DNA from: a virus
DNA: 60,977 bases
Strand: one strand, 5' to 3'
Virus record (IMG/VR): IMGVR_UViG_3300042346_000439
Location: 1 to 60,977 of that record
Positions 7,208-32,834 of this stretch are shown here, piece after piece. The position numbers were made by a program, and so were the translations under genes. The notes beneath the pieces were generated by a model, which was not told the DNA's origin, made no database searches, and saw only the letters and a program-made list of their open reading frames with translations. Within the stretch, counting starts at the first letter, position 1; every line of letters starts with the position of its first letter.

Positions 7208-7228
7208 GATTTAATTTATATCAAAAAA

Positions 7229-7630: not shown

Positions 7631-7653
7631 GTAGATTGCTCCTAGTTTTTACT

Positions 7654-8205: not shown

Positions 8206-8206
8206 G

Positions 8207-11200
8207 TTATGCGCCTCTAATCATACTGCCGCTGAAATATGAAATGGGAGAACCTGCTGTAGTATTTCTATTACCACCACTACTCTGTTGTATATAAACT
8301 TCAAAGTAATCGGTAGATCCGTTAGCGTATGCTATGTCAGATACACTCATTGAATAGAAACTAGCACCTTGTTCTGTTCCAGATTGATTGTGGCCACGGG
8401 CATATTCTGAACCATTTTTGTAAAGAATAATCATAACTTCGCCGGTGCTGGATGTACCATCAATACGAATAGTAGCATTCAACTGATAATATCCTTCTAT
8501 TGTAGGTGTGAATCTACTGCTGGCAAAATTATTGTTAGTGTCAAAATTTTCGGTGCCGAATGTTACTTTTTGCTGACTACCTGATGTAATGGCTTGTCCA
8601 GTTGCTACGTATGCTCTAAACGCAGGACCATTGACTGCTTTTTTACCGTTGACTTGATAATCTCCGCTGATACTTAAATTACCAGCATCACTTAAATTGA
8701 ATAAAGTTGCTGTGTAGGCACTATTGATAATTTCTACCGCACCTGTGCTGTTTAAACGGAATGTCTTGTTTGGATTGGTTGCACCACTGGTAGTATTAGT
8801 GGCCCTTAAAAAGTCAAAGTAGCCTGTACCACCCTGTGTGTTAGCGCCATTGATTGTTATAGCAGAACCAGTTGCTGTGTCTGGAGTATAAGTTATATCA
8901 ACTGTGCCTGGAAGTGTTGTGCTACCATCTGCACCAAATGTCCAATTTTTCGATACTCCTGCGGTATTTGTCCTAATGAGTATATTTGTATGAGCGTATA
9001 ATTCAGCAGATACCGACCCCATATACAATGCAGTAGAATCATCACTAGTGGTTGTTAGATATGCAACATTGGCTCCGTAAGTAGTAAAATCTAGTTTAGC
9101 ATTTCCTAATCCACCAATTGGTCCTGGTACTGTTAAGTTACCATTTGCACTAAGACTAACTGTACTAGCATCGTTGACTAATTGACTGGTGCCAGTATTT
9201 GCTTTAGCGAATGCTGAGTTGGCAGTAGAGAATGCACTATTAGCAATTGAACGTGCCACGTTATCAGTACCAGCGGCACCACCAGTGTTGGCTTGTGCCC
9301 ACGCAGAGTTTGCTTGTGCAAATGCAGAGTTTGCTGTAGACCATGCGCTTGCTACATTTGTCGCAATTGTATTTGTAGTAGCAGTTGTTGCATAAGTGTT
9401 AGCCGCATAACCACCAAGATAGTTTGCATTATTTGCAGTACCAGTAATGTCGTTTGGAATAACAATAGATGATACTTGCTGAACGTTAGCAATAACAGCA
9501 GGTATTGCAGGTGTCGTTGGATCAATTTGTGTAGGATATGATGCTATCTTAGTCTGACCCGTAGAAGACGAAACCTCAAACTGAATTCTATCAGCCGCAT
9601 TACATGTCAATAAAAGTGGTGTAACAGCAATAAGAAATCCTGGATCATTACCATTTTTTCTGTGAATAGAAAACTTGCTAGCCGAATTTGCTACGTTTAC
9701 TCCATTCACTCGAACCCATATGTCAATCGCATCTTCAGAATTTCCATTATTTTCAAACTGAATAGAATATTCAACGTGATAAGTTCCTGCATAAGCAATT
9801 AAAATATCATTATTACCACCAATAGTTACGCCATTCGTACCATCATATGAACTTGAAATAGGAACAGTATATGCTAATGATGTGTTTGAAAGTGCAACGT
9901 TTGCGCCGTTATAAAAGAATCCGCCAAAATAACCTGTTGTTAGATTGTTAGCAGAGATACCAATCGCCTGATTAATCCATTGACCAGTTGCAGTATTGTA
10001 TACTAAAACTTGTTCGTTTAATGGACTTACGATTGTTGCATCGCTTAAGTCATTGAGTGTCGTTACTAATGTTGGTTTGTTTTTAATGAACGCTACACTA
10101 GTATTATCAGAAACGTTCCAATCGGACTGTGTGTTTGCTGTTGTCCATGCAGAGTTAGCAGTATTGAATGCTAAGTTTGCTTGTGTATATGCGCTATTAG
10201 CGGTAGACCAAACCAGATTGACAGTAGTGTTTGTTGCATAACCAGAAAGACTTGGAACAACAATAGTGTTAGCGTAATTGTAAGCGGCTTGTGCTTTTAC
10301 ATCGGCATTAGATGCATTAGTAGTTGCTGTGTTAGCCTGATTATATGATGCATTGGCTGTAGAGAATGCCGAATTTGAATTTGACCAAACAATATCGACT
10401 ATAGCATTGACTGCATATCCGCTTAGACTTGGAACAACAATAGTGTTAGCATAATTGTATGCGGCTTGTGCTAAAGTTGTAGCGGTGTTCGCTTGAGTAT
10501 ATGCTGAGTTAGTAGTCGACCAAATCGTATTAACGGTTGTGTTAACAGCATAACCACTTAAACTAGGAACAATAATGGTGTTAGCATAATTATATGCCGC
10601 TTGTGCTAATGTGGTTCCCGTGTTTGCTTGAGTGTATGCTAAATTTGCTGTAGACCAAATTAAATTAACGGTTGTATTAACTGCATATCCAGTCAAGTCT
10701 GTATTACCACCGCTAGTAGATGTTCCTGTTGGACCAAACTCTACCCAAAGAGGACTTGATGTATTACCAAAATTGTAATATACAACTGCGCTGTCAGTAT
10801 TAGCCCAAAAATCATTTGAGTTTGCTGTAGCTGGCGCGGTGTTCTGACTGAATGTATATGACTTAGTATTTGCTGTAGCATATGCACTATTGGCAATTGA
10901 ACGTGCTAAGTTATCTGTTCCAGAACCACTTAATGTATTAGCATAATTGTATGCGGCTTGTGCTAATGAGTTTGCTGAATTTGCTTGATTGTATGCCGAG
11001 TTTGCTTGTAAGTACGCTGAGTTGGCTGTGTTCCATGCATTATTTGCTCTTGTTCTTGCTATCGTATCTACTGTACCGCCGCCAGTGCCACCTTCAACGA
11101 ATTCAAATTTTTGCGTAGACTCATTAAATGCTAAAACATATCCATCAGTAAGATTAGTTGTGTCAACATCATCAAGTCTACGTAGATTAACTTCACCACC

Positions 11201-11959
11201 ACCATGTGAACCACCACCGATACCACTTGATATGATAGTATTGACTTTTGCTTTGTATTGACTTACATCTTTTTGTAGAACTTCTTTGAACTTACTGATA
11301 GATTGTTCAATTGCTTTTACGTCTGCGTCTTTACCATCTTTACCTGGGAGACCTTGAATGCCCTGTGGTCCGATTTCGCCTCTTGGCCCAACTGATCCTT
11401 GAATTCCTTGTTGTCCGTCTTTTCCTGACTCTCCTCTGTCGCCTCTGTCACCCTTTTCACCACGCTCACCTTGAATTCCCTGTGCGCCAGCTGGTCCAGC
11501 GGGACCAATATTGCCCGCTTCTCCATCTCTTCCGTCCAAACCGTTTTTGCCGTCTTCACCCTTATCGCCCTTTTCGCCACGCTCGCCAGTAATTCCCTGT
11601 ATGCCTTGTGGACCAATATCGCCTTTGTCGCCTTTTATTCCCTGCGGACCTTCTGGCCCTATTTCACCCTGTTGACCAACATCACCTTTTTCACCACGTT
11701 CGCCAACATCGCCCTTGTCACCTTTGTCGCCTTTAGGTCCCTGAGCGCCAGTTGCACCAAGGGCTCCACGTGGGCCGACTGGACCAGGAACTTGTTCAAC
11801 GATTACTTCTGCTGTTTTCTTTTCTAGAAGAGATACGAATTCCGTCTTAAGTTTTTGTATCTCTTGTCTTGTGTATGCTACAGATGTTGCAACAGAAACT
11901 GCTTCGCTGAGTGTACTGCTAAAATTAGTTTCCTTCTTTGTCAACTTTAGCCTCTTCAA
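8207..11959 (-). CDS. Large tail fibre: collagen-like stalk, Ala/Asn repeats, C1q-like tip
   Basis: 1250 residues in clear modules. Residues 1-58 form a charged helix; 59 to about 210 are Gly-x-y collagen-like repeats (GDKGDKGDVGERGEKG type). Then come many A-x-ANSAYxQAN repeats, a beta-sandwich of C1q/TNF appearance near the middle, more repeats, and a C-terminal domain with the C1q pattern (GPAFRAYVATGQ, FDTNNNF, RFTPTIEGYYQLNATI). Such trimeric fibres bind receptors or decorate heads and tails. The gene overlaps the end of gp20 by 35 bases, so it is translated with the portal message. No assembly chaperone is encoded beside it. Exact virion location is not determinable from sequence. Confidence 0.85.
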   Translation of the reverse strand: MKRLKLTKKETNFSSTLSEAVSVATSVAYTRQEIQKLKTEFVSLLEKKTAEVIVEQVPGPVGPRGALGATGAQGPKGDKGDKGDVGERGEKGDVGQQGEIGPEGPQGIKGDKGDIGPQGIQGITGERGEKGDKGEDGKNGLDGRDGEAGNIGPAGPAGAQGIQGERGEKGDRGDRGESGKDGQQGIQGSVGPRGEIGPQGIQGLPGKDGKDADVKAIEQSISKFKEVLQKDVSQYKAKVNTIISSGIGGGSHGGGEVNLRRLDDVDTTNLTDGYVLAFNESTQKFEFVEGGTGGGTVDTIARTRANNAWNTANSAYLQANSAYNQANSANSLAQAAYNYANTLSGSGTDNLARSIANSAYATANTKSYTFSQNTAPATANSNDFWANTDSAVVYYNFGNTSSPLWVEFGPTGTSTSGGNTDLTGYAVNTTVNLIWSTANLAYTQANTGTTLAQAAYNYANTIIVPSLSGYAVNTTVNTIWSTTNSAYTQANTATTLAQAAYNYANTIVVPSLSGYAVNAIVDIVWSNSNSAFSTANASYNQANTATTNASNADVKAQAAYNYANTIVVPSLSGYATNTTVNLVWSTANSAYTQANLAFNTANSAWTTANTQSDWNVSDNTSVAFIKNKPTLVTTLNDLSDATIVSPLNEQVLVYNTATGQWINQAIGISANNLTTGYFGGFFYNGANVALSNTSLAYTVPISSSYDGTNGVTIGGNNDILIAYAGTYHVEYSIQFENNGNSEDAIDIWVRVNGVNVANSASKFSIHRKNGNDPGFLIAVTPLLLTCNAADRIQFEVSSSTGQTKIASYPTQIDPTTPAIPAVIANVQQVSSIVIPNDITGTANNANYLGGYAANTYATTATTNTIATNVASAWSTANSAFAQANSAWAQANTGGAAGTDNVARSIANSAFSTANSAFAKANTGTSQLVNDASTVSLSANGNLTVPGPIGGLGNAKLDFTTYGANVAYLTTTSDDSTALYMGSVSAELYAHTNILIRTNTAGVSKNWTFGADGSTTLPGTVDITYTPDTATGSAITINGANTQGGTGYFDFLRATNTTSGATNPNKTFRLNSTGAVEIINSAYTATLFNLSDAGNLSISGDYQVNGKKAVNGPAFRAYVATGQAITSGSQQKVTFGTENFDTNNNFASSRFTPTIEGYYQLNATIRIDGTSSTGEVMIILYKNGSEYARGHNQSGTEQGASFYSMSVSDIAYANGSTDYFEVYIQQSSGGNRNTTAGSPISYFSGSMIRGA
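10150..10690 (-). repeat. Tandem coding repeats in the collagen/C1q fibre gene
   Basis: Three to four imperfect units of about 135-177 bases, each encoding the pattern VNTTVNxIWSTxNSAYTQAN, then an AQAAYNYANTI segment and VVPSLSGYA. Near-identical stretches around GCGGCTTGTGCT recur at about 10,285, 10,467, 10,602 and 10,956. This could support repeat-number change by recombination. Confidence 0.75.
11328..11785 (-). repeat. Collagen-like Gly-x-y repeat tract
   Basis: About 50 consecutive Gly-x-y triplets in the 1250-residue fibre (residues 59-210), dominated by GDK, GEK, GPQ and GIQ triplets. It predicts a rigid triple-helical stalk and trimeric assembly. Confidence 0.9.
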
Positions 11960-13595
11960 CTAATGTACCAAAAAATGCAGTCATAGACTTAGCTAATTCT
12001 CTTTGGTCTACGTCATCGATTACTCTAGCATTGTTTTCAGTTTCTTCTTTTTTTACACTCACAACAAGTTGTTGCGGTGGAGGTGCAGGCGGTGCTGGAG
12101 GTGGCAAATCTTCTGCTACAGAATCTTCTCCCTCCATGTTTGCTTTGTCTTCTTGCATTTCTTCGTCCATTTGTTTTATATCTTCTTCGCTTTGATGTAA
12201 AACATTTTTTCTGATATAATTAATGGAGAAATATTTGCCAACATACCCGTCAATGTCTGAAAGAACACTCAATCGATCTTTCATCAATTCGGCATTTTTA
12301 AGTTCGCTGAAGTGTGAGTCTGATTGATAGTCATAACTGATTTCTTCTTTCATTTGTTCCCACTCTTTACGAGTGCAAACACCTTTAAGCAGAAGCTGTG
12401 TTTCAAGCATCTTGTCAAACAAGTGTGAGAATCTTAAACGCAAACGTGCAATGAACTTACCAAACTTCAATTCATCTCTAGTAATTTCAGAAGCACGACC
12501 TAGTGAAAATCCATTGTCAGCTTCTATGCGAGAAACTGGAACGTTCAATGATTTGAACATCTTCTTTTGAAAGTACAATACATCTTCAATCTCACCTAAG
12601 TTTTGTCCACCCTGTAGTGTGGTAATCTCAGTACCTTTACCACCTTCTCTACGTGGCAACCAGTAATCTTCTAGCATTGTTTGGAATCTTCTGTCATCAC
12701 GAATTTCACCAGTCTGTGCATCATAGACTAATTTGTTTTTATACTTCTGCATGATTTCACGCAAGTATTGTTCAGCTTTCATCTTAGGTAAATTACCCAC
12801 ATCAATGTAAAAAATTCTACGCTCTGGCGCTCTTGAAATACGATAGATAACTGTCGCATCTTCAAGCATACGTAATTGATTGAGGGGTTTGATTGCTTTG
12901 TGTAAATGTGAAACAATTACTTTGCCATCTTTGTCTGTGATACCAGAGTTGGTATAGCAAACTGAATCTACTGCAATTTTGATACCTTGTGAACCATCTT
13001 TAGCAAATCCTTTATCAGAGTAGATAAAGTATTCGTGATACTGTTGTGATGTGTCTGCTGTTCCAGGACGATTGTCAGTTCTTTTGTTTTCACGCACTTT
13101 ACGAATTTTACGTGGATCAATGTAACGAACTTCTTTCAATCCTGATCTAGGATTCTTTTCGTCAATGACCATGTGATAATACAATCGACCATCAACATAC
13201 CATCTACGAAAGATATCGTATCCCTGATTGTTGAAGTCAAGAAGTTTCATAACGTAATGATATTCATCACGAATTTTTTTCTTGATTGATTCAGGCTGTT
13301 CAAGTTTATCTAAAATGATTTGAACTGGATAATCACCATCTTCAAAGACTAATGATTCATTAACAATGTCTTCAATAGCCGCATCGCATTCTGGCTGAAG
13401 TGCCATCTCACGATACTTCTTAATTAAATCTGCGTCTGTTCTAATCTGTCCTTCAAGGTCTAAGTATGTACCATAGACACCGCCGCCAGAAATTGCAACG
13501 GATGCATCGTCATCGGTAGGTGGCACAAACGATTTTAACTGTTCTGCTTCAACATCATCTTTACCAATTTTATATCCAAAAAGTTTTATCGCCAT
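11925..13595 (-). CDS. 20: gp20 portal protein
   Basis: 556 residues (T4 524). Typical gp20 stretches are present: QPECDAAIEDIVNESLV, FRRWYVDGRLYYHMVID, VRYIDPRKIRKVRE, RISRAPERRIFYIDVGNLPK, GRASEITRDELKFGKFI. A proline-rich acidic tail (PPPAPPAPPPQQ) precedes the C-terminus. Twelve copies form the DNA entry ring at the head vertex, start head assembly with the core, and dock the terminase. The gene follows two tail-tube genes as in T4 (18-19-20). A terminator and a late promoter both lie in the leader (see 13616 and 13662). Confidence 0.95.
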   Translation of the reverse strand: MAIKLFGYKIGKDDVEAEQLKSFVPPTDDDASVAISGGGVYGTYLDLEGQIRTDADLIKKYREMALQPECDAAIEDIVNESLVFEDGDYPVQIILDKLEQPESIKKKIRDEYHYVMKLLDFNNQGYDIFRRWYVDGRLYYHMVIDEKNPRSGLKEVRYIDPRKIRKVRENKRTDNRPGTADTSQQYHEYFIYSDKGFAKDGSQGIKIAVDSVCYTNSGITDKDGKVIVSHLHKAIKPLNQLRMLEDATVIYRISRAPERRIFYIDVGNLPKMKAEQYLREIMQKYKNKLVYDAQTGEIRDDRRFQTMLEDYWLPRREGGKGTEITTLQGGQNLGEIEDVLYFQKKMFKSLNVPVSRIEADNGFSLGRASEITRDELKFGKFIARLRLRFSHLFDKMLETQLLLKGVCTRKEWEQMKEEISYDYQSDSHFSELKNAELMKDRLSVLSDIDGYVGKYFSINYIRKNVLHQSEEDIKQMDEEMQEDKANMEGEDSVAEDLPPPAPPAPPPQQLVVSVKKEETENNARVIDDVDQRELAKSMTAFFGTLVEEAKVDKEGN

Positions 13596-21285: not shown

Positions 21286-21306
21286 GTTATAAGCGAGGTG
21301 AATAAT

Positions 21307-21678
21307 ATGGAAAGACTAGAAGGTTTTGTGAAAAAGGGTTGGGGTCACGAATTGATTTGGGCTACCAACGATAAGTATTGCGGCAAATTGATGAAGTTCA
21401 ATAAAGGCGCAAAATTCAGTATGCACTTCCATGCTGAAAAAGATGAATCTTGGTATGTGTTAGATGGTTTATTTATGATTAAATTCATTGAGACTAAAGA
21501 CGCAAGTATGCATGACGTAACGCTGAAAGCTGGAGAAGTTTGGCGTAATCGTCCTCTACAACCACATCAAGTTATTTGCCTAGAAGAAGGCACAATCATA
21601 GAAGTCTCCACACCAGATAGTGTTCAAGATAATTATCGTGTTCTGCCTGGAGATAGTCAGCAGAGCAAGGAACAATAA
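21307..21678 (+). CDS. Small cupin protein, sugar-isomerase type
   Basis: About 123 residues. A single cupin barrel with the metal-binding pattern MHFHAEKDESWYV, then a PHQV histidine, preceded by KGWGHELIW as in mannose-6-phosphate isomerase-type II/WbuC-like cupins. The likely role is sugar phosphate isomerisation or binding in nucleotide-sugar metabolism; the substrate cannot be read from sequence. ATG at 21307 is chosen because GAGGTG lies at the right distance before it; a GTG at 21298 falls inside that ribosome-binding site. It overlaps the epimerase gene by TAATG, so the two are translated together. Confidence 0.8.
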   Translation: MERLEGFVKKGWGHELIWATNDKYCGKLMKFNKGAKFSMHFHAEKDESWYVLDGLFMIKFIETKDASMHDVTLKAGEVWRNRPLQPHQVICLEEGTIIEVSTPDSVQDNYRVLPGDSQQSKEQ

Positions 21679-22592
21679 TGATACTGGTTACTGGCGGATT
21701 TGGATTCATTGGATCAAATTTAATTAGAGCATTAAATGCAAGAGGCATATCAGAAATCATAGTTGTTGATGATTTGACTGATGGCAATAAGATGATGAAT
21801 CTAAACGGCACAACGTTTGGTGATTATTATGATGTTGATTCATTTTTTGATACATTCTCTGATTGGGATAGTGTCAAGTTTATTTTCCATGAAGGTGCAA
21901 TTTCTTCTACTAGAGAAACAAATGGTACTTTGTTAATGAAAAGAAATTATGAATTCTCAGAAAAACTTTTGAGAAAATCGTTTGAACATAAGATACCTTT
22001 TCAATATGCATCTAGTGCAAGTGTTTACGGTGACATGCCCGCAAACTTCAGAGTGCCAGAATCTGCTTCAATGTATCCACAAACACCATATGCATTTTCT
22101 AAATATATGTTTGACAAAAAAATTATTAAATTGATGGAGTCAGAATACTCTAGTAAGTTTGAATTCAACATTCAAGGGCTAAGATACTTCAATGTTTATG
22201 GCGAAAATGAATTGCATAAGAAAGATCAAGCAAGCCCAATCACCAAGTTTACTATTCAAGCAAGAGAAACAGGAAAAATAAAATTATTCTCTGGCTCAGA
22301 AAGTATATTCAGAGATTTCGTTTGTGTTGAAGATATTGTACAAGCCAAAATAGAATTAGCATTCAACAAAATGAATAGTGGAATTTTTAATTTGGGCACA
22401 GGTGCACCAGAATCTTTTGCTAGAGTTGCTGAAATTATTGCACAGAGAGAAAATGCTAAAGTTGAAACTGTTCCTTTTCCAAAAGAGTATCAAACAAAAT
22501 ATCAATATTGGACGTGTGCTGACATGACTAAATTAAGAGATGCAGGAATTAAAACGCATTTCAGAAGTATAAATGAATTTTTTAAGATTTGA
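21678..22592 (+). CDS. hldD: HldD-like ADP-L-glycero-D-manno-heptose 6-epimerase
   Basis: 304 residues (E. coli HldD 310). Extended SDR epimerase: NAD-binding TGGFGFIGSN (5-14), the heptose-epimerase signature FHEGAISST (70-78), SSASVYGD, the catalytic YxxxK (Y138, K142) and the RYFNVYGENELHKK stretch with the lysine that aligns with K178 of HldD. The C-terminal IFNLGTGAPESF also matches. It would convert ADP-D-glycero- to ADP-L-glycero-D-manno-heptose, the donor for LPS inner core. It sits between the cupin and a GmhB-like protein, so the three form a heptose cassette. Other epimerase substrates cannot be fully excluded. Confidence 0.85.
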   Translation: MILVTGGFGFIGSNLIRALNARGISEIIVVDDLTDGNKMMNLNGTTFGDYYDVDSFFDTFSDWDSVKFIFHEGAISSTRETNGTLLMKRNYEFSEKLLRKSFEHKIPFQYASSASVYGDMPANFRVPESASMYPQTPYAFSKYMFDKKIIKLMESEYSSKFEFNIQGLRYFNVYGENELHKKDQASPITKFTIQARETGKIKLFSGSESIFRDFVCVEDIVQAKIELAFNKMNSGIFNLGTGAPESFARVAEIIAQRENAKVETVPFPKEYQTKYQYWTCADMTKLRDAGIKTHFRSINEFFKI

Positions 22593-22604: not shown

Positions 22605-23303
22605 ATGGGAAGATTTTCAATAGATAGAAGCATGAACGTTGGTGGTCAACCACCATCACCTACTATGCCACAGATGCAACCGTACGGACAACAAAACTAT
22701 AGTTCACCATATGGCCAACAAATGCCTCAGCAACAGCAAAACTGGCCAACTTATTTTCCTAAAGAAACAATTGGTATTGATAGAGGTGTAATTTTAAATG
22801 ACACTAAACCTATTATTAATCCATCTGATATAGAAATACTTCCTGGTGCATTAGATGCAATTCGTACTATTCGTCTAAAAGGATATAAACTTGTCATATT
22901 CTTTAATGAACCCCTAATCAGTCAAGGTAAATTAACTACTCAAGCAGTAGATTCTAATGTTCAACAGTTGATGAATTATTTTGGTCAAGCTGGAATCTTT
23001 ACAATTGACGGACTTCTATATGCAACATCCAACATGAAAGAAGATTTGTTTGCAATGCCAAACAATGGTATGATGAAACGTGCTGAGAATGATATGAAAG
23101 TTGCATTCAAGGGTGGATACTTTGCAGGCAACAAATTATATAATCTGAAAGCTGGCGACTCTGTACATGCAAAACCTATTCTAATTAAATCTCCTGGTTA
23201 TGAAGATGTAGAGTCTAAACTAGATACATTTGCAAATAAGGAGTTAAAGAATAAAACAAAGACGTTTAACTCTCTACTAGATTTTGCAAATTCTCTTGCA
23301 TAA
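22605..23303 (+). CDS. Degenerate HAD phosphatase-like protein (GmhB-type) with Gln/Pro-rich head
   Basis: 232 residues. Residues 1-52 are low-complexity Gln/Pro/Tyr/Met. The rest follows the heptose-bisphosphate phosphatase layout: ILPGALDAIRTIRLKGYKLVIFFNEP corresponds to the FIDG..AM..LK..GF.LVVVTNQSG region, then QGKLTTQAVD and a FTIDGLLYATSN stretch. The catalytic DxDG motif is reduced to GIDRG (D59), so the second Asp is missing, and the GD-K/D motif is AGNK. It is probably catalytically dead or has a different role. It ends at a bidirectional terminator. The family call is by pattern; the loss of motifs is directly visible. Confidence 0.7.
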   Translation: MGRFSIDRSMNVGGQPPSPTMPQMQPYGQQNYSSPYGQQMPQQQQNWPTYFPKETIGIDRGVILNDTKPIINPSDIEILPGALDAIRTIRLKGYKLVIFFNEPLISQGKLTTQAVDSNVQQLMNYFGQAGIFTIDGLLYATSNMKEDLFAMPNNGMMKRAENDMKVAFKGGYFAGNKLYNLKAGDSVHAKPILIKSPGYEDVESKLDTFANKELKNKTKTFNSLLDFANSLA

Positions 23304-23304: not shown

Positions 23305-23330
23305 AAAAAAGCCCCAAAAGGGGCTTTTTT
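23305..23330. terminator. Bidirectional terminator between converging gene sets
   Basis: A perfect 11-base stem (AAAAAAGCCCC / GGGGCTTTTTT) with an AAAA loop carries T-runs in both directions. It lies between the plus-strand HAD gene and the minus-strand carbamoyltransferase and serves both. Its last base is also the first base of the complemented carbamoyltransferase stop. Confidence 0.93.
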
Positions 23331-25102
23331 TATTCTTCAGTTGCTGTTTCTGTTTCAACTTCTTCAGCTTCAACTTTCTCTGTTGGATCATCAATTGTCT
23401 TTTCGACAAGAACACCTAACTCAGGCAAGTAGATATATTTTAGTTTAGAACTAAAGATTGTCATCAATGCATCTTGTAGTGTCTCAACTAAAGGATGACC
23501 AGCAAGATTGAATGAAGTATTGAAGATAACTGGAACACCAGTAATGTCTTTGTATGCCTTAATCAATTCATAGTAATGCTTGTTGTTCTCTTCAGAAACA
23601 GTTTGCACACGACAAGTTTCATCAACGTGTGTAACACACGGAATCTCACTCACTTTGTCTGCGGCAACATTAACTGCATACATCATAAATGGAGACTCTT
23701 CAAGTCCAGCCATGTCAAACCAATCGTTTGCGTCTTCTAGCAAGACAGAGCCTGCAAATGGTCTAAACCATTCACGACCTTTGACAAGATTAACTTTGTC
23801 TTTACCTTCTGGATCTCTTGAATCATAAAGAATAGAACGATTACCCAATGCACGAGGACCAGCTTCAGAACGACCTTGAAAGATCGAAACAATATTTTTA
23901 TCAGCAATCAATTGTGCAACTTCTTCTTTTGTAGTAGGAGTTACTTTGATTGCTTCTTTGTTTGCGTCTAAGATATACTCAAGCAATTCTTTTGAATACT
24001 CAGGTCCGTAATAGATGCTTTTCTGTGGGCGAACTGTACTATCATTTTGTGAAGTGTGCCAAGAAAGTTTTGCAACACCAATTGCAGTACCAGCATCATT
24101 TGCGACTGGTTCAACATAAATGTTTAAATGTGGAAAACGTTTCTTTAAGTAATAGTTTGCAACGCAATTCAAACCATAACCACCAGCGATAACAATATTT
24201 TCTACTTTTGTAGCTTGAACTGCAAGTTCAATGTAGTCACCAATTATCTGTTGCGTATCATTTTGAATATGCCAAGCAAGATTCTTTTCAACAGTTGTTA
24301 ATTTTTCAGAGTCTTTATGCCAATCTCTTGGATCTGCATATTGTCTTAGATATGGAAATCTTCCTTGGTCGATGTAAGCACCCGCTGGATATGCAGGAAT
24401 GAAAACATCTTTTGAACCCCTATTACCATTAAACAATCTAGGAATATTGTCATCATACTTACCATATGGTGCAAGTCCCATTGTCTTACCTGCTTCGATA
24501 AAACCAAAGCCTAAGTACTGAGATACTGCTTCGTATGCTTTAGTAACAGTTGTTGCGCCACCATCAAAATCAAATACTCCAGTATCGACTTTTGGTCCGG
24601 CATTGTTACCATAAACTTTTCGCACTAAAGCAAATTTGCCTGGATATTCACAATGCCAAATCGATTCTGTTTCATATCCTTCGGCTGTGATAGTTTCATT
24701 CTTCTCATCCACTTTTTCTTTTTTGAGTGAACCAGCACCATCTACAATAAGTGCAATTGCTGTTTCAAATCCAGAATTGTAAAATGCAGATGCGGCATGA
24801 CCCAAGTGATGTTCATTTCCAAGTCTTTGTACTTTTACATTAGGATAGAATTTGCGAACAAGCGCAGTATACGCATCTTCACCTGTCCACGGAAGTTTAT
24901 GTTCTTCTTGTCCAGTACCAGCAATGACAAGTTCATCAACGTGCCATTTCTGCATAATGTCTAACATGCCTCTGAATGGATTACCATCATACTTAGCACG
25001 ACTTAATCTTTCTTCTTCAACATAGTATACAACTTCACCATCAACTAGTAATGCCGCAGAACCATTATGACCAGGATTGATACCTAAAATATTATAACTC
25101 AT
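23330..25102 (-). CDS. NodU/CmcH-family carbamoyltransferase
   Basis: 590 residues. N-terminal ASKHA-type domain with GINPGHNGSAALLVDGEVV and EEERLSRAKYDG, metal-binding histidines in NEHHLGHA (96-103), a DGAGS loop (121-125), then GGYGLNCVANY. The C-terminal carbamoyltransferase domain has SEAGPRALGNRSIL and FNTSFNLAGHPLVETLQDA. The family transfers a carbamoyl group from carbamoyl phosphate to a hydroxyl, usually on a sugar. The last 25 residues are an acidic tail. It is transcribed with the glycosyltransferase-like gene from a host-type promoter; the acceptor is probably the sugar made or attached by its neighbours, which is an inference. Confidence 0.92.
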   Translation of the reverse strand: MSYNILGINPGHNGSAALLVDGEVVYYVEEERLSRAKYDGNPFRGMLDIMQKWHVDELVIAGTGQEEHKLPWTGEDAYTALVRKFYPNVKVQRLGNEHHLGHAASAFYNSGFETAIALIVDGAGSLKKEKVDEKNETITAEGYETESIWHCEYPGKFALVRKVYGNNAGPKVDTGVFDFDGGATTVTKAYEAVSQYLGFGFIEAGKTMGLAPYGKYDDNIPRLFNGNRGSKDVFIPAYPAGAYIDQGRFPYLRQYADPRDWHKDSEKLTTVEKNLAWHIQNDTQQIIGDYIELAVQATKVENIVIAGGYGLNCVANYYLKKRFPHLNIYVEPVANDAGTAIGVAKLSWHTSQNDSTVRPQKSIYYGPEYSKELLEYILDANKEAIKVTPTTKEEVAQLIADKNIVSIFQGRSEAGPRALGNRSILYDSRDPEGKDKVNLVKGREWFRPFAGSVLLEDANDWFDMAGLEESPFMMYAVNVAADKVSEIPCVTHVDETCRVQTVSEENNKHYYELIKAYKDITGVPVIFNTSFNLAGHPLVETLQDALMTIFSSKLKYIYLPELGVLVEKTIDDPTEKVEAEEVETETATEE

Positions 25103-25103: not shown

Positions 25104-26042
25104 TTATTTTCCTACCTTCTTCTCTATATCTTTAACAATTGAAATAAACAACTCGTCTACATCTTTATCAGATAAATCCATGCACTTGTCATTGTATCTA
25201 TCTGCTAAGTGTGAATCTAAACCAGAAATACGAATTGGAGAGTATTTCTTTTCGACTCCAGGTCGTTCGTAAATATTGAACCAATCTGGATATGAAACGT
25301 TCTTTGCGAATGTGGATCCGATGAAAACAGTTCCTGGCTTATTAAACGCTCTTGCCATATGCTGTCCGACAGAATCACAACCAACAAAATAATCAGCCGC
25401 TTCAATAACAGCAGACCATGACCTTAAATCTATTTCAGGTTTAAAGGTGAAGTTATCATCTGGCTGGTGAAATGGTTTCTCTGCAAACAAAATAAGATTG
25501 TACTTTGTTGAAAGTTTTCTAACTAAACGTAAGTATGCGTGTGAATCAAGACCTCTAGATGAATCATCGATAATGTCAGCACGATCAACTCTTGCACTTC
25601 TACCATAAGGTTGAATCACAAGTGTCTTGTCTTTTTTCTGTTGCATCTTTATGTCTGCAATCATATTAGCGGCATTCTTTTCTTCTGCTTTGCTAGTGTA
25701 CAACTTGAGTGGAGGTAAATCAGAATGGTCATGTGTGCCATTGATTTCAATGTCGAACGCTTCCGCTAGAGATACTTTTTGATTATAGTACTCTGGAACT
25801 TTATATGGTTCTGGGCTGATGTGTTTGTCTGCGCCTTTAATGACTAGATCAAAGATACCTTTTGTATCTGCACTAAATGTGATATCTTGAAGCAGTTGAT
25901 TGCCCCAATATAAATTGTCCCATCCCATGACAATAATTTTTATGTCATCTTCTGGTTTTTTGTTTCTAACTAATTTTTCAAGTGCTGGTAGTGCCGCAAT
26001 TGCTCTTCCTGCACCACCGTCAATATAAATTACTTTTTTCAT
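25104..26042 (-). CDS. GT9 (heptosyltransferase-family) glycosyltransferase-like protein
   Basis: 312 residues. GT-B fold layout: N-terminal YIDGGAGRAIAALPALEKL, middle LVIQPYGRSARVDR (start of the C-terminal domain), and the donor-site signature AADYFVGCDSVGQHMARAFNKPGTVFIGST, equivalent to the D..iG.DSg..HlA.al..P motif of ADP-heptose:LPS heptosyltransferases. Its product is consistent with the HldD-like enzyme encoded opposite it. It precedes the carbamoyltransferase by 1 base. The likely target is host LPS core or a phage glycan; which one cannot be told from sequence. Confidence 0.78.
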   Translation of the reverse strand: MKKVIYIDGGAGRAIAALPALEKLVRNKKPEDDIKIIVMGWDNLYWGNQLLQDITFSADTKGIFDLVIKGADKHISPEPYKVPEYYNQKVSLAEAFDIEINGTHDHSDLPPLKLYTSKAEEKNAANMIADIKMQQKKDKTLVIQPYGRSARVDRADIIDDSSRGLDSHAYLRLVRKLSTKYNLILFAEKPFHQPDDNFTFKPEIDLRSWSAVIEAADYFVGCDSVGQHMARAFNKPGTVFIGSTFAKNVSYPDWFNIYERPGVEKKYSPIRISGLDSHLADRYNDKCMDLSDKDVDELFISIVKDIEKKVGK

Positions 26043-26566: not shown

Positions 26567-29500
26567 TTATAGATTATAGAACATATCTATTTTGGTAAAC
26601 ATCAAACAGCAAGAACATCCGGACACAGTACCGCTTGGATTACCATTTGCAAAGAATCCACCACCACCAGAGGCAGAACATCTATATGGAGTCAAATCAA
26701 AATATGCAATGTGTACGCTATTTTGAGTATTTAATGGTGCTCCAGAACCTCTTGTTTGAGTTGCAGGCATCACCTCATAACAAAGGGAATCTACGGCAAA
26801 GTATGTTGAATTACATGCACTATAAAGTTGAAATCCTGATCTCTTACGATGATCTTGGGCGGCAAAACAGAGGCAGTTGCAACAGAAACATGTATCAGCA
26901 CAAGAAACTCTTATATCCATCATATATTGTGCATTCCAATATGATTTACATGGTCTATAATTGCAAGAGTTACATGCGCCCCATGAAGGAACACCACTTG
27001 ATATAAAATCAAACCACAAACAATTAGGGCCAGCTTGATTGCACGTTCTCATAAGTCTATCATAAGGAATCATTCTACAACATGTGCGACTGTCAGAAAA
27101 ACAACATCCAGTGTAGGCACCGCCCGCAATGCATGAGCCACATGCCTGATGTACGCAAACAAGCATTGCACATTGAAACGTTGAATTATTGTTCGCCACA
27201 ACTTTAAAATGATTGCCTATTCCACAACATCCCACAAAGGCCGCACAGCAACGGCGTGGTGGTGTCTGACAGCATGGATAGTGAGTATCAATCTGATTAA
27301 CACACACATGTTGTGCGGTGAAACCGTTGGCTCTAGTAAAATTACATACTGGATGGTCAGCCGAGTAAGTGCCGCCACAAACGCCGGTTTGACAACAAAG
27401 CACAATATTACAGGCAGGGCAACAAGGAGAACATGGTACACTCAAACAGCAATTAGGACCAAAACACTCACATGCTCTATTAAAGCAGTATGGCCCTTCC
27501 AAACAAAAATCTTTGTGTGGTGCTATGAGATAACAGAAGTTGAACGTTTCATCAAACGTTGTCATGTCTTGACTACAGTTTTTGGGAGTATAAACTGCCG
27601 CAAAGCAACCTGGGTGCGGCCCGGTTGCGCCGAAGAGGTGGTGTGCTACAACGATTCCGATAGAATTTGCGTTTCCAGGATTACATTGATGAAAAAAGCG
27701 GTTATCACATTCGGCTGTGGACGCATGGCAACAGCAACCGGCATTGCCAAAATGACATAGCTGAAATGCATCACCTATATCTATAACACAAAATATACTC
27801 TTGTCTGATCTAACAATATTACTGCCAGTAGGTGCCGGAGAAACATAGCAAGTAGTGTTCTGATAATCGGCATGAGCACAATTAGGCCTACATGCAATCA
27901 TTGGAGGCATGTTAGGAAATGCTGGGACTGAATATACTGAATTTGATGAACCATAAAAATTAACTGTCTTCAAGCCAGCTTCATCGGAAAGAATTGCGGC
28001 CGCAAAGTGATGGCGCTGTCCAGCATGTCCCATGCACTGGCAAACTCCTGAATTACAACAAAAACATCTGCCAGAACAATAAGAGCAATGAAAAACTTGA
28101 TTACATATTGTACTATCGTAGCCTCTACTATTTGGAGTTTGATGATACATAGACTCAAAACAGCACACAATTGTTCCAACAACACCATCTGTATTAAATA
28201 CTGTTGTGTGTCCGGTTTGTCCTAATGCGTTTTGGCATCCAAAATTCCCTCCAATGTGAGCGCCTTCTGATGTGCCTACGGCGGTGCTACCAGAGGTACC
28301 GTCACAACTGGCACAACATGCACACATAGTCATTACTGGAGGATATGCTCCAGATAACACAAGTCTACATCCAATTATTTTAGCATTTGCAAAAGTAAAG
28401 TTTGTCCAAGAACATGCACTACCACCAATCGCTAAAGCGTTAGTACAATCAAGTTCTGTTCCTTGCATTGTATTATTTGCTTGAGAGCCATAGCACCAGA
28501 CGTTCACACCAGGTGTATTTCTAAAATATCCACAGCCGCCTACTGTGCCTTCGGCTTGGCCACGGCATGTACAACAATTGTAATAATGGAATTGGTCTCG
28601 GGCACCTAGCATCGTGCAAGTGGCGATGGAGCCACCAGCGGTACCGCCATATAACATTGCAAATGATCTCCAGCCAACAAGGAATGCTTTAGAATCCGCT
28701 TGATTGTTTGGGTTTTTATAAATTAATGTGTGAGATGCCGCAGTTGGGTTAATCATGTGTCTCAGGATCGAACATGTGTCTGTGCAGGTAACGTGAGGAG
28801 CCTGGCACAGACAGTATGGAAGCGTTCCTGATCCATGCCCTTGAAAATAATCTTCATAACATCTGCCGTAAATACAATGTGTGGCCGCTGGCAATGACAG
28901 ACATGCATTACAGCATGTACATGGAGTAAAACATGCTAAACCAGCAGGTGTATTTCGAACAAAATGGTCGCAACTAATTCTAACGCAACCTCCAACTTTA
29001 CCAAAAGAGAACATCATAGCATATTGCCCAGCTTCTTGGCAACATAATTGATTTTCAATTCCTAATGTGGTTTGATATCCATCAGTTCTCATTGGGCTTA
29101 CGCCAGCAAAGTACTCATCACAGAATGCAACTGTATAGAATGGCAACGGAACATCTGGAAAGTGAGTCCAAGATGCAGTATTTGGTTGACTGTTGGCAAA
29201 CAGACACATTCTTGAGTGCCCAGTTTTGAAATATGCTGGACCACAGACACCAGAGGCACCATTATTAGTAGCGCAATCAGTAATAATCCAACCAGTGTAT
29301 ACGTAGTTGCAACATGCAAAAGTACTTAACGCATATCTAACTGTAAATTGACAGCAAACATTTCCACAAAGTTGTTGGAAAATACATGCTGGAAGAGGCA
29401 CACAAAGGCGATTGAATGTAGCCGCATTGTCTGTTGTATAATACAATCCACAATTCAATGTCAAACCAGATGTGTTTGCAGTTGTTCTGTCCAAAGAACA

Positions 29501-30745
29501 TGTATAGCAAGTTCTAAAACATGCAATAGCACTACTTTGATTCCAGAATCCTGGAGAAATCATCGTAAATCTACAGTCTGCGTGTGTAATAACGTTATAG
29601 TTACACTTGATGAATCGACCTAGATATTCTACTTCAGTATTTGAAAGTTGAGATCCATTTGCAATTGTCATTGGACATTGTCTAAACCCACCGCATGGAA
29701 AATATAAATGTGGAGCATTAGGATCGTTTTCGACATAGCATCCACGACCGATAACGTCGGACTTGATTATACGGTGCCCATATTGCTCGAGGCCAGATCC
29801 GAGGCTGCCGCAAGGACATATGGGGTTTGAACCAGTCAATGTGGTACAAAAGCAAAAAAGACATGCTCTTTGTCTATTGCTACCAAAAGAAGCGAAGCAA
29901 TCCATGAAATACGTATTTCCTGACTCAAGAAATTTAGCCATACAACAAATACCAAAGGAAGTATTAGACCATCTAGCAAAATTACAGCTTGTTTCGTTTT
30001 CGCCACATGCGCCTTTAGTGATAATTTCGTTTGTTGCACACACTAATCTAGTGTATGTATTTGCTGGCTCGGACAGAGCGAAAATACAACATTGAAAAGC
30101 CGCAGTACACATCACACATGCAACATCTCTATTGAGAGTGTCTGTAAATCCGCTGGTGCAAAGTGCAGTACTTAAACCAGATGCAGTCAAACAACCAAGT
30201 GCAGTTGCATCACTTAACCAAAATGCCGCACGACCTGCAGTTCCAACGGCTTCTTTTATTGAACATGCAGTACCTCTAAAACATGCAGATACACACGAAT
30301 TGCACGTTAACATCTTAGTAATATCTGAGTTTGATGATACTGCGGTAGCTAAAAATGCTGTGTTACTAGCAAATGCACAGTTAATCATACATGGTGTATT
30401 ACCAAAGTGATTGAACGCATTAGTTGCCTCTGGTGTTGAAAAACTCATCATGTAGTTGTAGTAACAAGAAGACCCCAACATATCATCTCTACTATTAGTA
30501 GTTTGATAGAATATGCATGATCCAATTGGATTTGCAAACAATGCAGTCATCGCATTATTAGAACGAACTAGAGTGTGTGCCGCAGTATTTGATTGCGCCA
30601 ACGCACATGAATATTGTGGAGAACTTAGCACCTGTGTTACATCGGCTAATCGTCCACCATCGGATAGCAAAGTATCAAGACAGCCGGGTGTTGTATTCCC
30701 TGTCGATATTGCATTTAAAACTCGTATACCTCTTACCACTGGCAT
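26567..30745 (-). CDS. Giant cysteine-rich tail fibre / adhesin
   Basis: 1392 residues with about 145 cysteines by hand count (about 10 percent) and more than twenty CC pairs, spread over the whole length. It is also rich in Asn, Ser, Thr, Gly, Ala and Phe and very poor in Lys and Glu. The N-terminus (PVVRGIRVLNAISTGNT, then GCLDTLLSDGGRL) and the S-x-x-A-x-x-x-x repeats of the first 120 residues resemble phage fibre N-termini. No enzyme motif or signal peptide is seen. A GGGGAG ribosome-binding site and two exact late promoters precede it, and a fibre chaperone follows. The open frame of 4.2 kb and context support a real gene. Disulfides or metal binding are possible; the role as receptor-binding protein is inferred. 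Confidence 0.85.
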   Translation of the reverse strand: MPVVRGIRVLNAISTGNTTPGCLDTLLSDGGRLADVTQVLSSPQYSCALAQSNTAAHTLVRSNNAMTALFANPIGSCIFYQTTNSRDDMLGSSCYYNYMMSFSTPEATNAFNHFGNTPCMINCAFASNTAFLATAVSSNSDITKMLTCNSCVSACFRGTACSIKEAVGTAGRAAFWLSDATALGCLTASGLSTALCTSGFTDTLNRDVACVMCTAAFQCCIFALSEPANTYTRLVCATNEIITKGACGENETSCNFARWSNTSFGICCMAKFLESGNTYFMDCFASFGSNRQRACLFCFCTTLTGSNPICPCGSLGSGLEQYGHRIIKSDVIGRGCYVENDPNAPHLYFPCGGFRQCPMTIANGSQLSNTEVEYLGRFIKCNYNVITHADCRFTMISPGFWNQSSAIACFRTCYTCSLDRTTANTSGLTLNCGLYYTTDNAATFNRLCVPLPACIFQQLCGNVCCQFTVRYALSTFACCNYVYTGWIITDCATNNGASGVCGPAYFKTGHSRMCLFANSQPNTASWTHFPDVPLPFYTVAFCDEYFAGVSPMRTDGYQTTLGIENQLCCQEAGQYAMMFSFGKVGGCVRISCDHFVRNTPAGLACFTPCTCCNACLSLPAATHCIYGRCYEDYFQGHGSGTLPYCLCQAPHVTCTDTCSILRHMINPTAASHTLIYKNPNNQADSKAFLVGWRSFAMLYGGTAGGSIATCTMLGARDQFHYYNCCTCRGQAEGTVGGCGYFRNTPGVNVWCYGSQANNTMQGTELDCTNALAIGGSACSWTNFTFANAKIIGCRLVLSGAYPPVMTMCACCASCDGTSGSTAVGTSEGAHIGGNFGCQNALGQTGHTTVFNTDGVVGTIVCCFESMYHQTPNSRGYDSTICNQVFHCSYCSGRCFCCNSGVCQCMGHAGQRHHFAAAILSDEAGLKTVNFYGSSNSVYSVPAFPNMPPMIACRPNCAHADYQNTTCYVSPAPTGSNIVRSDKSIFCVIDIGDAFQLCHFGNAGCCCHASTAECDNRFFHQCNPGNANSIGIVVAHHLFGATGPHPGCFAAVYTPKNCSQDMTTFDETFNFCYLIAPHKDFCLEGPYCFNRACECFGPNCCLSVPCSPCCPACNIVLCCQTGVCGGTYSADHPVCNFTRANGFTAQHVCVNQIDTHYPCCQTPPRRCCAAFVGCCGIGNHFKVVANNNSTFQCAMLVCVHQACGSCIAGGAYTGCCFSDSRTCCRMIPYDRLMRTCNQAGPNCLWFDFISSGVPSWGACNSCNYRPCKSYWNAQYMMDIRVSCADTCFCCNCLCFAAQDHRKRSGFQLYSACNSTYFAVDSLCYEVMPATQTRGSGAPLNTQNSVHIAYFDLTPYRCSASGGGGFFANGNPSGTVSGCSCCLMFTKIDMFYNL

Positions 30746-30776: not shown

Positions 30777-30784
30777 TATTTATA
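30777..30784 (-). promoter_or_regulatory. Late promoter (TATAAATA) for the cysteine-rich fibre, proximal
   Basis: An exact TATAAATA on the minus strand, 32 bases upstream of the 1392-residue fibre gene. Confidence 0.88.
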
Positions 30785-30790: not shown

Positions 30791-30798
30791 TATTTATA
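30791..30798 (-). promoter_or_regulatory. Late promoter (TATAAATA) for the cysteine-rich fibre, distal
   Basis: A second exact TATAAATA 14 bases further upstream, overlapping the stop codon of the gene at 30794. Tandem late promoters suggest strong expression. Confidence 0.85.
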
Positions 30799-31471
30799 CC
30801 TTCTGAACATGAATTTTCCACTTGCATACGTTTGCATAGCAAGTTCCGCATATGCTTGCAGATGGGCTACATGGACCGCTTGCACAAACAGATGGGCCGC
30901 CCCACGCAACAATACACCACGCCGGATCACAATATCGCATAAAGACTTGACCACCAAAAGATCCGCCACATACTGCATATATTTCTACAACATCGCTTTG
31001 AACTGCACCTGGCAGAGAAACACATTGACATGCAAATGTACAAGGTGAAACACCAGCAAATTGATTCACAACTTCAAGGCTGTAGTTTCCGCCATTTGGT
31101 TCAAAGGCATTGAATGCTTCAATTGTATCCCAAATAGGTGCAGAGAGAAGCCAAGCACCATTTGATGTTCTGAATGATGTTTCATCGTCATCTGGTTCAT
31201 CGGAAGCCAAACTGAATGAAAAGTATCCTAAATTTTCTACGAATGCTTGTGATCCGTTTGTTGGTGTTGTGGCTCTAAGGTCATTTCTGCTATCATACGC
31301 ATAATTGGTAATAGCATCAACTGCACCCCAAGTTGAGGGTTGCCCTGTGCCTTGGGATTTTAAAACTTGCCCTGTTGTTCCTTGCCCACCAGACACCAAT
31401 GAAATAGAGCATACGTTTGCTAGATTTCTTGTGTCATCAATGACTGTACAACTGCCGACTTTAATTGCCAT
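30794..31471 (-). CDS. Second cysteine-rich fibre protein
   Basis: 225 residues. The N-terminal 50 residues (MAIKVGSCTVIDDTRNLANV, then GTTGQVLKSQGTGQPSTWG) are a typical phage fibre attachment/shaft start. Residues about 50-135 form a cysteine-free beta domain. The last 85 residues hold 11 cysteines (for example SPCTFACQCV, SVCASGPCSP, SICGTCYANVCKW). It is directly upstream of the giant cysteine-rich fibre and has its own late promoter. A shared cysteine-rich chemistry suggests the two proteins form one adhesin; this is inference from neighbourhood and composition. Confidence 0.8.
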   Translation of the reverse strand: MAIKVGSCTVIDDTRNLANVCSISLVSGGQGTTGQVLKSQGTGQPSTWGAVDAITNYAYDSRNDLRATTPTNGSQAFVENLGYFSFSLASDEPDDDETSFRTSNGAWLLSAPIWDTIEAFNAFEPNGGNYSLEVVNQFAGVSPCTFACQCVSLPGAVQSDVVEIYAVCGGSFGGQVFMRYCDPAWCIVAWGGPSVCASGPCSPSASICGTCYANVCKWKIHVQKV

Positions 31472-31496: not shown

Positions 31497-32834
31497 TTAT
31501 TTATAAGACTTGAGTTGGCGAACTTCTTCTTTTAAATCTTTAATTCCTTCTACTAAAAAGGCAATCAAATTCAAATAATTAATACCTTTTGTGCCATCAG
31601 GACGAACCCTAACGATTTCAGGAAGTACTGTCTCGACTTGTTGCGCTGACAGCCCATAAGATTTTTCTTTTGTGTCTTTCCAACTAAATCCAAATCCGTC
31701 AAGTTGAGATATAATGTCTAATGGATTTACAATCTCTGTAAAGTTTTCTTTTAATGTCACATCAGAAGATGAATTGTAATCAGTTGACGTTAACAATCCA
31801 GAACTTGGATTGAAAGTTAATTTTGTAGATGATGTATTCGCACCAACAATTGATCCAGATGTTACACTAGTAAATACTGGAAAGAATGTTGAATTTGTTG
31901 CTGTGTTATCTGTAATTGAAACAGCCGCTGATGCCCAAGTGCTGTCACCACGCAAGAATGTAGTAGCGTCTGCTGTGCCTGAAGCAAGTCTTGCTGGCGC
32001 TACTGTTCCTGTTGCAATGTTGTTTGCGTTTAATGAAGTTAAGTTTGCACCGCTAACTGCACCGAAAGAACCAGACCATGTGCCTGAAGTAATTGTGCCA
32101 GTTGATGTGAGTGACGATGTGACAACTGAAGACCCTAATGCCGTTGCGCTTAAAACGTCAACAGTATTAATCTTGTATGTTTGTCCTGGTCCAATATTGA
32201 TACTGTTGGCAGCCGTAAGTCCGCCAATAGCTAAGTTTGCCCATGCAAACCCGTTAGCAGTAATATCAATTGCTGGCGCTGGTTCAATGTTGTAATTTCT
32301 GAATAGCTTCCAAGTATCATCTGAAGCATCTCTGAAAAAACCAGAGTGTAAGTTGGCACCACCTTGATTATATTGTCCATGAAAACCAATATCAACTGCG
32401 TCTGATACATTGTTATTGGCTAAATGAAGCATTGGATCATTGACTTCAATATTAACAGTAGAGATTGAAGTATTTGAACCTAAGAAAAATACGTTACCTT
32501 CAAATGTTGTTATTCCAGTTACTCTTAAGTCTGTTCCAACATATAACTTTTTAGCGATACCAACACCACCAGCGACAACAAGAGTTCCATTATTAGCCGC
32601 AGTTGCATCTGTTGTTCCACCAAGCGTTAGTACGTTTGTGCTTGTATCATACGTGAGTTCAGAATCGTCTGTGAATGAGCCTGATGCGCCACCAAGAACA
32701 ACTCTTCCAGATGTTAGTCCCGTACCAGTGCCTGCTGATACGCCGAATCCAGCATTAACGGTCGTAATGACTTCATTAACGGTCGATCTAAACTCATTAA
32801 ACGTATTTGCTAAAATTACACTATTAATTGTCAT
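31497..32834 (-). CDS. Tail fibre with C-terminal S74 intramolecular chaperone
   Basis: 445 residues. Beta-repeat shaft with TNVLTLGGTTDATAANNGTL and VAGGVGIAKKLYVGTDLRV-type strands, then a C-terminal peptidase S74 domain from about residue 351: Ser356/357 in SSDVTLKENF with Lys362, followed by FGFSWKDTKEKSYGLSAQQVE, and a coiled-coil end (VEGIKDLKEEVRQLK). S74 domains trimerise fibres and cut themselves off. The retained Ser and Lys indicate an active autoprotease. The gene leads the receptor-binding cluster and lies 4 bases after a small coiled-coil gene. Confidence 0.88.
   Translation of the reverse strand: MTINSVILANTFNEFRSTVNEVITTVNAGFGVSAGTGTGLTSGRVVLGGASGSFTDDSELTYDTSTNVLTLGGTTDATAANNGTLVVAGGVGIAKKLYVGTDLRVTGITTFEGNVFFLGSNTSISTVNIEVNDPMLHLANNNVSDAVDIGFHGQYNQGGANLHSGFFRDASDDTWKLFRNYNIEPAPAIDITANGFAWANLAIGGLTAANSINIGPGQTYKINTVDVLSATALGSSVVTSSLTSTGTITSGTWSGSFGAVSGANLTSLNANNIATGTVAPARLASGTADATTFLRGDSTWASAAVSITDNTATNSTFFPVFTSVTSGSIVGANTSSTKLTFNPSSGLLTSTDYNSSSDVTLKENFTEIVNPLDIISQLDGFGFSWKDTKEKSYGLSAQQVETVLPEIVRVRPDGTKGINYLNLIAFLVEGIKDLKEEVRQLKSYK
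31498..31505 (-). promoter_or_regulatory. T4-type late promoter (TATAAATA) for the 225-residue cysteine-rich protein
   Basis: An exact TATAAATA on the minus strand, 27 bases upstream of the start and overlapping the stop of the S74 fibre. Confidence 0.86.

Follow-up and report, generated by a model that had tools for sequence, protein, structure and literature searches.

The closest described counterparts of the locus analyzed here are the bacterial autotransporter heptosyltransferases (BAHT) and their adhesins, TibC-TibA and AAH-AIDA-I, which share with it a heptosyltransferase fold, an enzyme gene located beside that of a large adhesin, many proposed acceptor sites and the ADP-heptose pathway; TibC modifies Ser of its autotransporter adhesin, and cannot carry out O-heptosylation without its catalytic base, Asp110 (PMC4358343). 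The LPS heptosyltransferases of family GT9 (WaaC, WaaF and WaaQ) share with the phage enzyme the GT-B fold and the D..H donor motif. Attachment of a sugar to the sulfur of Cys, as we propose below for a phage fibre, occurs in S-glycosylated bacteriocins of the sublancin type, but these are short peptides modified, as far as is known, by a glycosyltransferase of another fold, and no phage fibre is involved. To our knowledge, family GT9 includes no heptosyltransferase that forms S-linkages. Among phages, the structural proteins of Milano and 7-7-1 are likewise enriched in Cys, but at 1.4–2.6%, compared with ~10% here, and in the capsid, tube, sheath and baseplate, and the accessible text of the respective reports mentions no heptosyltransferase link (PMC10811340, PMC12796354). 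Cyanophages carry clusters of sugar genes that have been called LPS genes of unknown function, and whether these are functional or 'stuffer DNA' is undecided in the literature (PMC3037559).

The window, that is, the entire 60,977-nucleotide stretch of viral DNA that was analyzed, encodes a Cys-saturated fibre, P0001, flanked by other fibre genes and by a cluster of heptose-related genes (Table 1). HldD scores 301.1 bits against the TIGR02197 cut-off of 274.6, and HldE is encoded in relatives.

Table 1. Features of the window around the Cys-saturated fibre gene
Feature	Position	Strand	Basis or characteristics
Cupin of the sugar cluster (phrog_7851)	21298..21678	plus	Cupin_2
HldD, ADP-glyceromanno-heptose 6-epimerase	21678..22592	plus	TIGR02197 equivalog cut-off exceeded
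HAD phosphatase resembling GmhB (heptose 1,7-bisphosphate phosphatase)	22605..23303	plus	under curated cut-off
NodU-type carbamoyltransferase (phrog_1601, Nol-like)	23330..25102	minus	Carbam_trans_N and Carbam_trans_C
312-aa heptosyltransferase-fold protein (phrog_8954)	25104..26042	minus	weak GT9
138-aa protein directly downstream of P0001	26137..26553	minus	kept in relatives
P0001, Cys-saturated fibre protein, 1392 aa	26567..30745	minus	adaptor-like N-terminal ~42 aa, ~10-aa repeats to ~residue 290, Cys-rich body beyond
Proximal late-promoter-type TATAAATA	30777..30784	minus	sequence motif
Distal late-promoter-type TATAAATA	30791..30798	minus	sequence motif
225-aa accessory fibre protein	30794..31471	minus	residues 1-120 common to Cys-poor relatives; C-terminal ~100 aa Cys-rich
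445-aa tail fibre	31497..32834	minus	C-terminal Peptidase_S74 intramolecular chaperone; zero Cys

Translation of the P0001 frame yields 145 Cys (10.4%), 22 CC pairs, 19 Lys and 25 Glu, in agreement with a previous sequence-only reading, which had estimated about 145 Cys, over twenty CC pairs and very little Lys or Glu across the 1392 residues. The other large ORFs of the window contain 0–1.2% Cys, with the exception of the 225-aa neighbour (5.8%), in which 11 of the 13 Cys lie beyond residue 140. The third codon positions and fourfold-degenerate sites of P0001 resemble those of the other window genes, so the bias lies at the amino-acid level and is not a codon artefact. The reading frame is open in all relatives found in IMG/VR, five full-length and one shorter, and across seven independent records, and dN/dS is 0.25–0.39, indicative of purifying selection. 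Cys ranks with the best-conserved residues: it fills 71 invariant columns in an alignment of six sequences and, when seven are aligned, 43 of the 170 columns that are invariant. The six sequences carry 136–148 Cys per chain, and 73 columns contain Cys in one sequence alone, indicating rapid Cys replacement in variable loops. The complete lack of Cys conservation that would have refuted the sequence-only reading is not what the alignments show: part of the Cys positions are conserved, and those in loops turn over fast.

The gene lies in the fibre slot, with baseplate genes on one side and neck genes on the other, an order matching that of Mosig, OC and the cyanophages, and residues 1-42 align with the N-terminal attachment region of other proteins of this slot (hhalign, E=3.5e-8, 95%). 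Searches of the full protein against Pfam, PHROG (at E<=1), PDB sequences and, by tblastn, the phage collection returned zero matches. Judged by its sequence and those of its relatives, P0001 is a real fibre-type protein with Cys content under selection, as the sequence-only reading had held. The two exact tandem late promoters that it described are present, as is a ribosome-binding site (GGGGAG upstream of the ATG), and these elements suggest expression. The downstream fibre chaperone that it named was not supported: the 138-aa protein matches no family, including those of chaperones, and an assembly role for it is possible.

AlphaFold2 modelling of residues 316-1392 from eight sequences gave a pLDDT of only 22.9, and we accordingly propose no fold for the P0001 body; an Asp-box beta-propeller, an early and speculative idea, was suggested by SxDGxTW-like motifs in relatives. 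Nor does a trimeric-adhesin repeat explain the Cys, because the matches of an approximate probe for it were, in most isolates, fibres poor in Cys and, in AG-345-L05, a fibre with 3% Cys. An unsystematic look for a diversity-generating retroelement, prompted by record L014, found no pointer to one in the window.

P0001 had been thought to have no comparable phage fibre, but Cys-saturated fibres recur at the same locus in ~20 uncultured phages and in the cultured cyanophages P-SSM2, S-SSM7, S-CAM1 and S-CAM3, where they are unannotated. In 34 of the 36 records examined, the gene for the 312-aa family has within ~3 kb an ORF for a Cys-rich fibre, whose Cys content peaks at 8.7% or more (mostly 13–20%) over 150 aa. 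Most of these positive records were retrieved via the enzyme gene rather than via Cys content; the counts are not independent, because most of the positive phages form one T4-like group, and they represent perhaps three or four lineages. The two records with no Cys-rich fibre, L027 and L047, are partial contigs with enzymes of 42–50% identity. None of the 12 control regions without the gene, covering 8–42 kb each rather than whole genomes, contained a Cys-rich fibre, the maximum being 7.3% Cys. Conversely, a Cys-rich protein of P-SSM2 matched seven phages, all seven of which encode the enzyme family. A search of GTDB genomes with this family gave no matches.

The fibres coupled to the enzyme belong to different types. 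Those of the cyanophages (phrog_4205 and phrog_35878; T4-GC 299/301 of P-SSM2, and S-SSM7 and S-CAM1/3) resemble P0001 in their ~10% Cys, their gene slot and their neighbours, which comprise the same enzyme family, a carbamoyltransferase and heptose genes, but they are small (260–360 aa) glycine-rich domains with zero sequence similarity to P0001. In Aeromonas phage HJ05 and the N4-like Vibrio phages SBP1, K479 and D505, the enzyme gene and the Cys-rich fibre stand as a pair, with no sugar-synthesis genes annotated in their vicinity. SBP1 shares 11 of 14 Cys with enzyme-bearing relatives over its 260 N-terminal residues, whereas homologous fibre domains of Vibrio phages lacking the enzyme have Cys at none of the aligned Cys positions of SBP1. 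Cys-rich fibres of unrelated phages are tied to the gene for the 312-aa protein, and this pairing is the new point of the present analysis.

The AlphaFold2 model of the 312-aa protein (pLDDT 91.7) was matched by Foldseek most closely to WaaF (1psw, E=1.2e-9), the protein heptosyltransferase TibC (3e-9) and then WaaC, with 3tov (GT9) and 2h1h also among the top PDB matches, which span E values from 1e-9 to 1e-8; this confident model predicts a GT-B heptosyltransferase fold. At the sequence level, TIGR02201 and PF01075 match weakly, under their curated cut-offs (16.1 bits for PF01075 against a gathering score of 22), and the SBP1 relative exceeds the latter, with 25.4 bits. The ADP-heptose donor motif is kept, with D223 in 31 of 31 sequences and H228 in 30 of 31, aligned to WaaC D261 and H266 (E=5.6e-4). 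The catalytic Asp is absent, the ungapped position of WaaC Asp13 being occupied by Arg (Arg13) in all 31. This substitution, the sub-cut-off scores and linkage to a fibre rather than to LPS core genes set the phage enzyme apart from WaaC, WaaF and WaaQ. The BAHT enzymes, to which its identity is ~11%, differ from it in the catalytic Asp and in a four-Cys iron-finger module that is missing from the phage protein, with its two Cys. An altered acceptor chemistry is plausible, because TibC needs Asp110 while the phage enzyme has Arg at the position of WaaC Asp13.

We propose, at roughly even chances, that the fibre Cys may be acceptors for a phage-directed (carbamoyl)heptose. P0001 would be a tail-fibre adhesin with surface Cys acting as sugar attachment points; the 312-aa enzyme would move heptose from ADP-heptose onto the thiols in S-linkage, with numerous acceptors on each chain; the heptose, once attached, would be decorated by the carbamoyltransferase. 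The fibre tip would acquire a dense sugar coat, which might serve in protection, receptor mimicry or binding. We infer all four elements, namely, the action of the enzyme on the fibre, Cys rather than Ser/Thr as acceptor, heptose as the sugar, and carbamoylation. Compared with the BAHT systems, the acceptor would be Cys instead of Ser and the partner a phage fibre instead of an autotransporter. We also suggest, with a little less than even confidence, that a two-gene module, made up of a Cys-rich fibre and the heptosyltransferase-fold enzyme with Arg in place of the catalytic base, could S-glycosylate dozens to more than 100 Cys per fibre chain in three or more lineages (T4-like, N4-like Vibrio and Aeromonas HJ05). 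Within the literature collection searched, no paper dealing with S-glycosylation, heptosylation or Cys-rich phage fibres offered a precedent, and we found no acceptor motif around the fibre Cys.

The main rival to sugar attachment is a disulfide-stapled adhesin, in which Cys reduced in the cell would oxidize after lysis into intra- and inter-chain disulfides that stiffen the fibre, while the heptosyltransferase acts elsewhere. Virion disulfide networks are real in the Agrobacterium phages Milano and 7-7-1 (PMC10811340, PMC12796354), and the conservation of Cys in P0001 and a mild enrichment of CC and CxC (z=2.9 and 2.6) fit this reading. However, Cys gained in a lone lineage shows no excess co-occurrence (p 0.24–0.65) and columns of the same pattern do not cluster (p 0.07–0.44); the gains are not paired. 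Moreover, Cys swaps with Asn, Arg, Glu and Gln and avoids Ile, Leu, Met, Phe and Val, opposite to BLOSUM62; this signal, weak or absent in 3 of 5 alignments, is the pattern expected of an exposed polar residue and indicates exposure, not modification. Given also that Milano proteins average 1.4% Cys against 10% here, and that stapling leaves unexplained why fibres of different phage types are coupled to a glycosyltransferase, we consider it unlikely.

Comparably improbable, in our assessment, is that the enzyme cluster modifies another target, either the fibre on Ser/Thr or host LPS, the latter to block superinfection, and co-travels with Cys-rich fibres because both suit particular hosts. LPS is the usual target of GT9 enzymes, and both the naming of the cyanophage clusters as LPS genes or 'stuffer DNA' (PMC3037559) and the Ser acceptor of TibC (PMC4358343) are in line with this possibility, but what the Vibrio and Aeromonas phages have in common is, at minimum, an enzyme gene adjoining a Cys-rich fibre, the hosts are diverse (cyanobacteria, Vibrio and Aeromonas), and the catalytic Asp for hydroxyl acceptors is missing throughout the family alignment. 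Chelation of Zn, Fe or Cu along the fibre body appears very improbable: Cys density is very high, with some CC and CxC, but CxxC is at chance (207 observed against 191.5 expected, z=1.3), no fixed Cys spacing was found in the Cys-rich fibres, the sites turn over fast, swapping with Arg, Gln and Asn, and P0001 matches no metal-site family. Disulfides and metal binding were the two mechanisms put forward in the sequence-only reading, and both are disfavoured by these results; neither explains why Cys-rich fibres unrelated in sequence lie next to the same heptosyltransferase-fold gene. An artefact of codon or mutational bias, neutral drift or an untranslated frame, for which the fast replacement of loop Cys might speak, is ruled out by the normal site composition, the dN/dS values, the stable Cys totals and the open frames.

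If the two-gene module operates as proposed, protein glycosylation would gain a new class and phage adhesins their first S-glycosylated members: phages would glycosylate their own host-recognition tips by a dedicated enzyme, with Cys as the handle and a new glycosylation chemistry. The heptose and carbamoyltransferase clusters of cyanophages would gain a function, the odd amino-acid composition of these fibres would be explained, and glycobiology might acquire an S-glycosyltransferase. Irrespective of the sugar, cultured phages possess an unannotated class of fibres with 8–16% Cys that is linked to a single enzyme family, which presents a clear and testable puzzle.

A 1392-residue protein saturated with cysteine, as the sequence-only reading had described it, is borne out on translation: it contains 145 Cys (10.4%) and 22 CC pairs, with 19 Lys and 25 Glu. 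Two TATAAATA boxes and the ribosome-binding site GGGGAG lie upstream, in agreement with the two promoters and the ribosome-binding site proposed there. Because the third and fourfold-degenerate positions of this gene (P0001) resemble those of adjacent genes in codon-position composition, the Cys bias lies at the amino-acid level. The window, an IMG/VR record of 60,977 bases, comes from a T4-like phage, its sheath being closest to those of Ochrobactrum phage OC and the pelagimyophages (42-45% identity).

Features in the window and in other phage records
Feature	Record	Coordinates	Strand	Length	Remark
P0001 fibre ORF	window	30745..26567	minus	1392 codons	
HldD	window				scores over curated cut-off
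GmhB-like phosphatase	window				
NodU-type carbamoyltransferase	window				
Cupin of sugar cluster	window	21298-21678			phrog_7851
Partial fibre	L045	3-785		261 aa	43 Cys (16.5%)
Glycine-rich fibre protein	L023	5075-5998		308 aa	18 Cys
Fibre, trimeric-adhesin-like repeats	L037 (Marine virus AG-345-L05)	5846-13318		2491 aa	75 Cys (3%; <=6.7% per window)
Fibre	L014	10398-13688			C-terminal domain AWYVDFSDGSV..RARAVRR

IMG/VR holds five full-length relatives of P0001 (55-66% identity over aligned residues) and an additional shorter one at 26% (L011); dN/dS in the family is 0.25-0.39. Across six aligned sequences, 71 columns are invariant for Cys, yet another 73 show it in just one sequence; the total per sequence stays within 136-148. 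Residues 1-42 resemble Cys-poor fibre-slot proteins (hhalign E=3.5e-8), and the neighbouring 225-aa accessory fibre protein is built similarly, its first half being common to Cys-poor relatives and its Cys-rich second half absent from them. Cys-poor fibre counterparts of 478-491 aa (L012, L013, L015) carry ~10-residue repeats (xAMxxIAxSx) and a C-terminal YxDMT; P0001 has similar repeats at residues 45-290 and AYFDL at its C-terminus. Separately, in L014, a high-GC phage with distant relatives of both the 225-aa adaptor and the 138-aa gene downstream of P0001, the fibre C-terminal domain and a near-copy 3' in a broken frame look like the template/variable region pair of a diversity-generating retroelement.

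Among the six P0001 relatives, Cys exchanges most commonly with Asn, Arg, Glu and Gln, and most rarely with Met, Ile, Phe, Leu and Val, giving a correlation of -0.53 with the BLOSUM62 Cys row (-0.48 in well-aligned columns, each counted once); all other residues tested correlate positively with their own rows. The S-CAM family gives -0.57, and three smaller families weak or no signal (-0.36, -0.11, 0.12). Lone Cys gains among the P0001 relatives showed no pairing, CxxC occurs at chance frequency, and no motif flanks the Cys. The exchange pattern, unpaired gains, chance CxxC and lack of a flanking motif are characteristic of exposed sites rather than of buried disulfides or metal sites.

Nor is the fibre without comparison among phages, as had been supposed. 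Searching with the 312-aa gene next to P0001 recovered more distant phages, nearly all with a fibre of 8-16% Cys at the equivalent spot; in many cases this fibre has no sequence similarity to P0001. The cultured cyanophages P-SSM2, S-SSM7, S-CAM1, S-CAM3 and Sf-FS3 each encode 2-3 proteins of ~8-12% Cys, mostly glycine-rich and annotated 'hypothetical'. The partial fibre of L045 has the top Cys content among fibres examined, the L023 protein is a second Cys-enriched adhesin of its phage, and L050 has multiple Cys-rich fibre genes in tandem.

A nearby ORF with at least 8.7% Cys in some 150-aa window accompanies the 312-aa family in 34 of 36 records, which are not independent; the maximum in 12 control regions was 7.3%. 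Fibres are Cys-poor in phages Mosig, HTVC008M, Melnitz and OC, where the stretch examined does not contain the gene. The pair spans T4-like phages, N4-like Vibrio phages (SBP1, K479, D505) and Aeromonas phage HJ05. In the reverse direction, a Cys-rich P-SSM2 protein matches seven phages, all seven with the 312-aa family (in AG-345-E02, on one of two matching contigs). The SBP1 fibre offers what reads as a natural experiment against homologues outside the 55 records carrying the family: in Vibrio phages 1.004.O, 2.044.O and 1205, which share homologous domains, 100% of aligned SBP1 Cys are replaced (by Lys, Asp, Ala, Ser and others), whereas K479 and D505, which carry the family, share 11 of the 14 Cys in the N-terminal 260 residues. 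The two exceptions, L027 and L047, carry the family with no Cys-rich fibre nearby, the Arg13 motif being kept in both; where that fibre is expected, L047 has 2OG-Fe(II) oxygenase and glycosyltransferase-like genes. L037 has no enzyme of the family within the 20-kb stretch examined.

The 312-aa protein has its PHROG match in phrog_8954, a family of unknown function, and also hits GT9 models weakly. The structures closest to its AF2 model (pLDDT 91.7) are E. coli heptosyltransferase II, WaaC and TibC, which heptosylates the adhesin TibA and whose base Asp110 is essential (PMC4358343). The donor sugar nucleotide is probably ADP-heptose, because the family retains the donor motif, with D223 and H228, HldD and a GmhB-like phosphatase are encoded in the window, and HldE is encoded in relatives. 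At the position of Asp13, the catalytic base of WaaC (a role that agrees with the superposition in the TibC paper), 31 of 31 sequences have Arg. Because a thiol depends less on a base than a hydroxyl does, the missing Asp would fit a Cys acceptor. In the sugar cluster, the name 'cysteine dioxygenase' given to the cupin family in cyanophage annotation is doubtful, since its domain matches are sugar-type cupins.

A functional link between the 312-aa enzyme and Cys-rich fibres is very probable, and the chances that Cys is the acceptor residue for heptose are about even. The enzyme would transfer heptose onto the cysteines of the neighbouring fibre, where disulfides may be present too, and the heptose would perhaps be carbamoylated afterwards.
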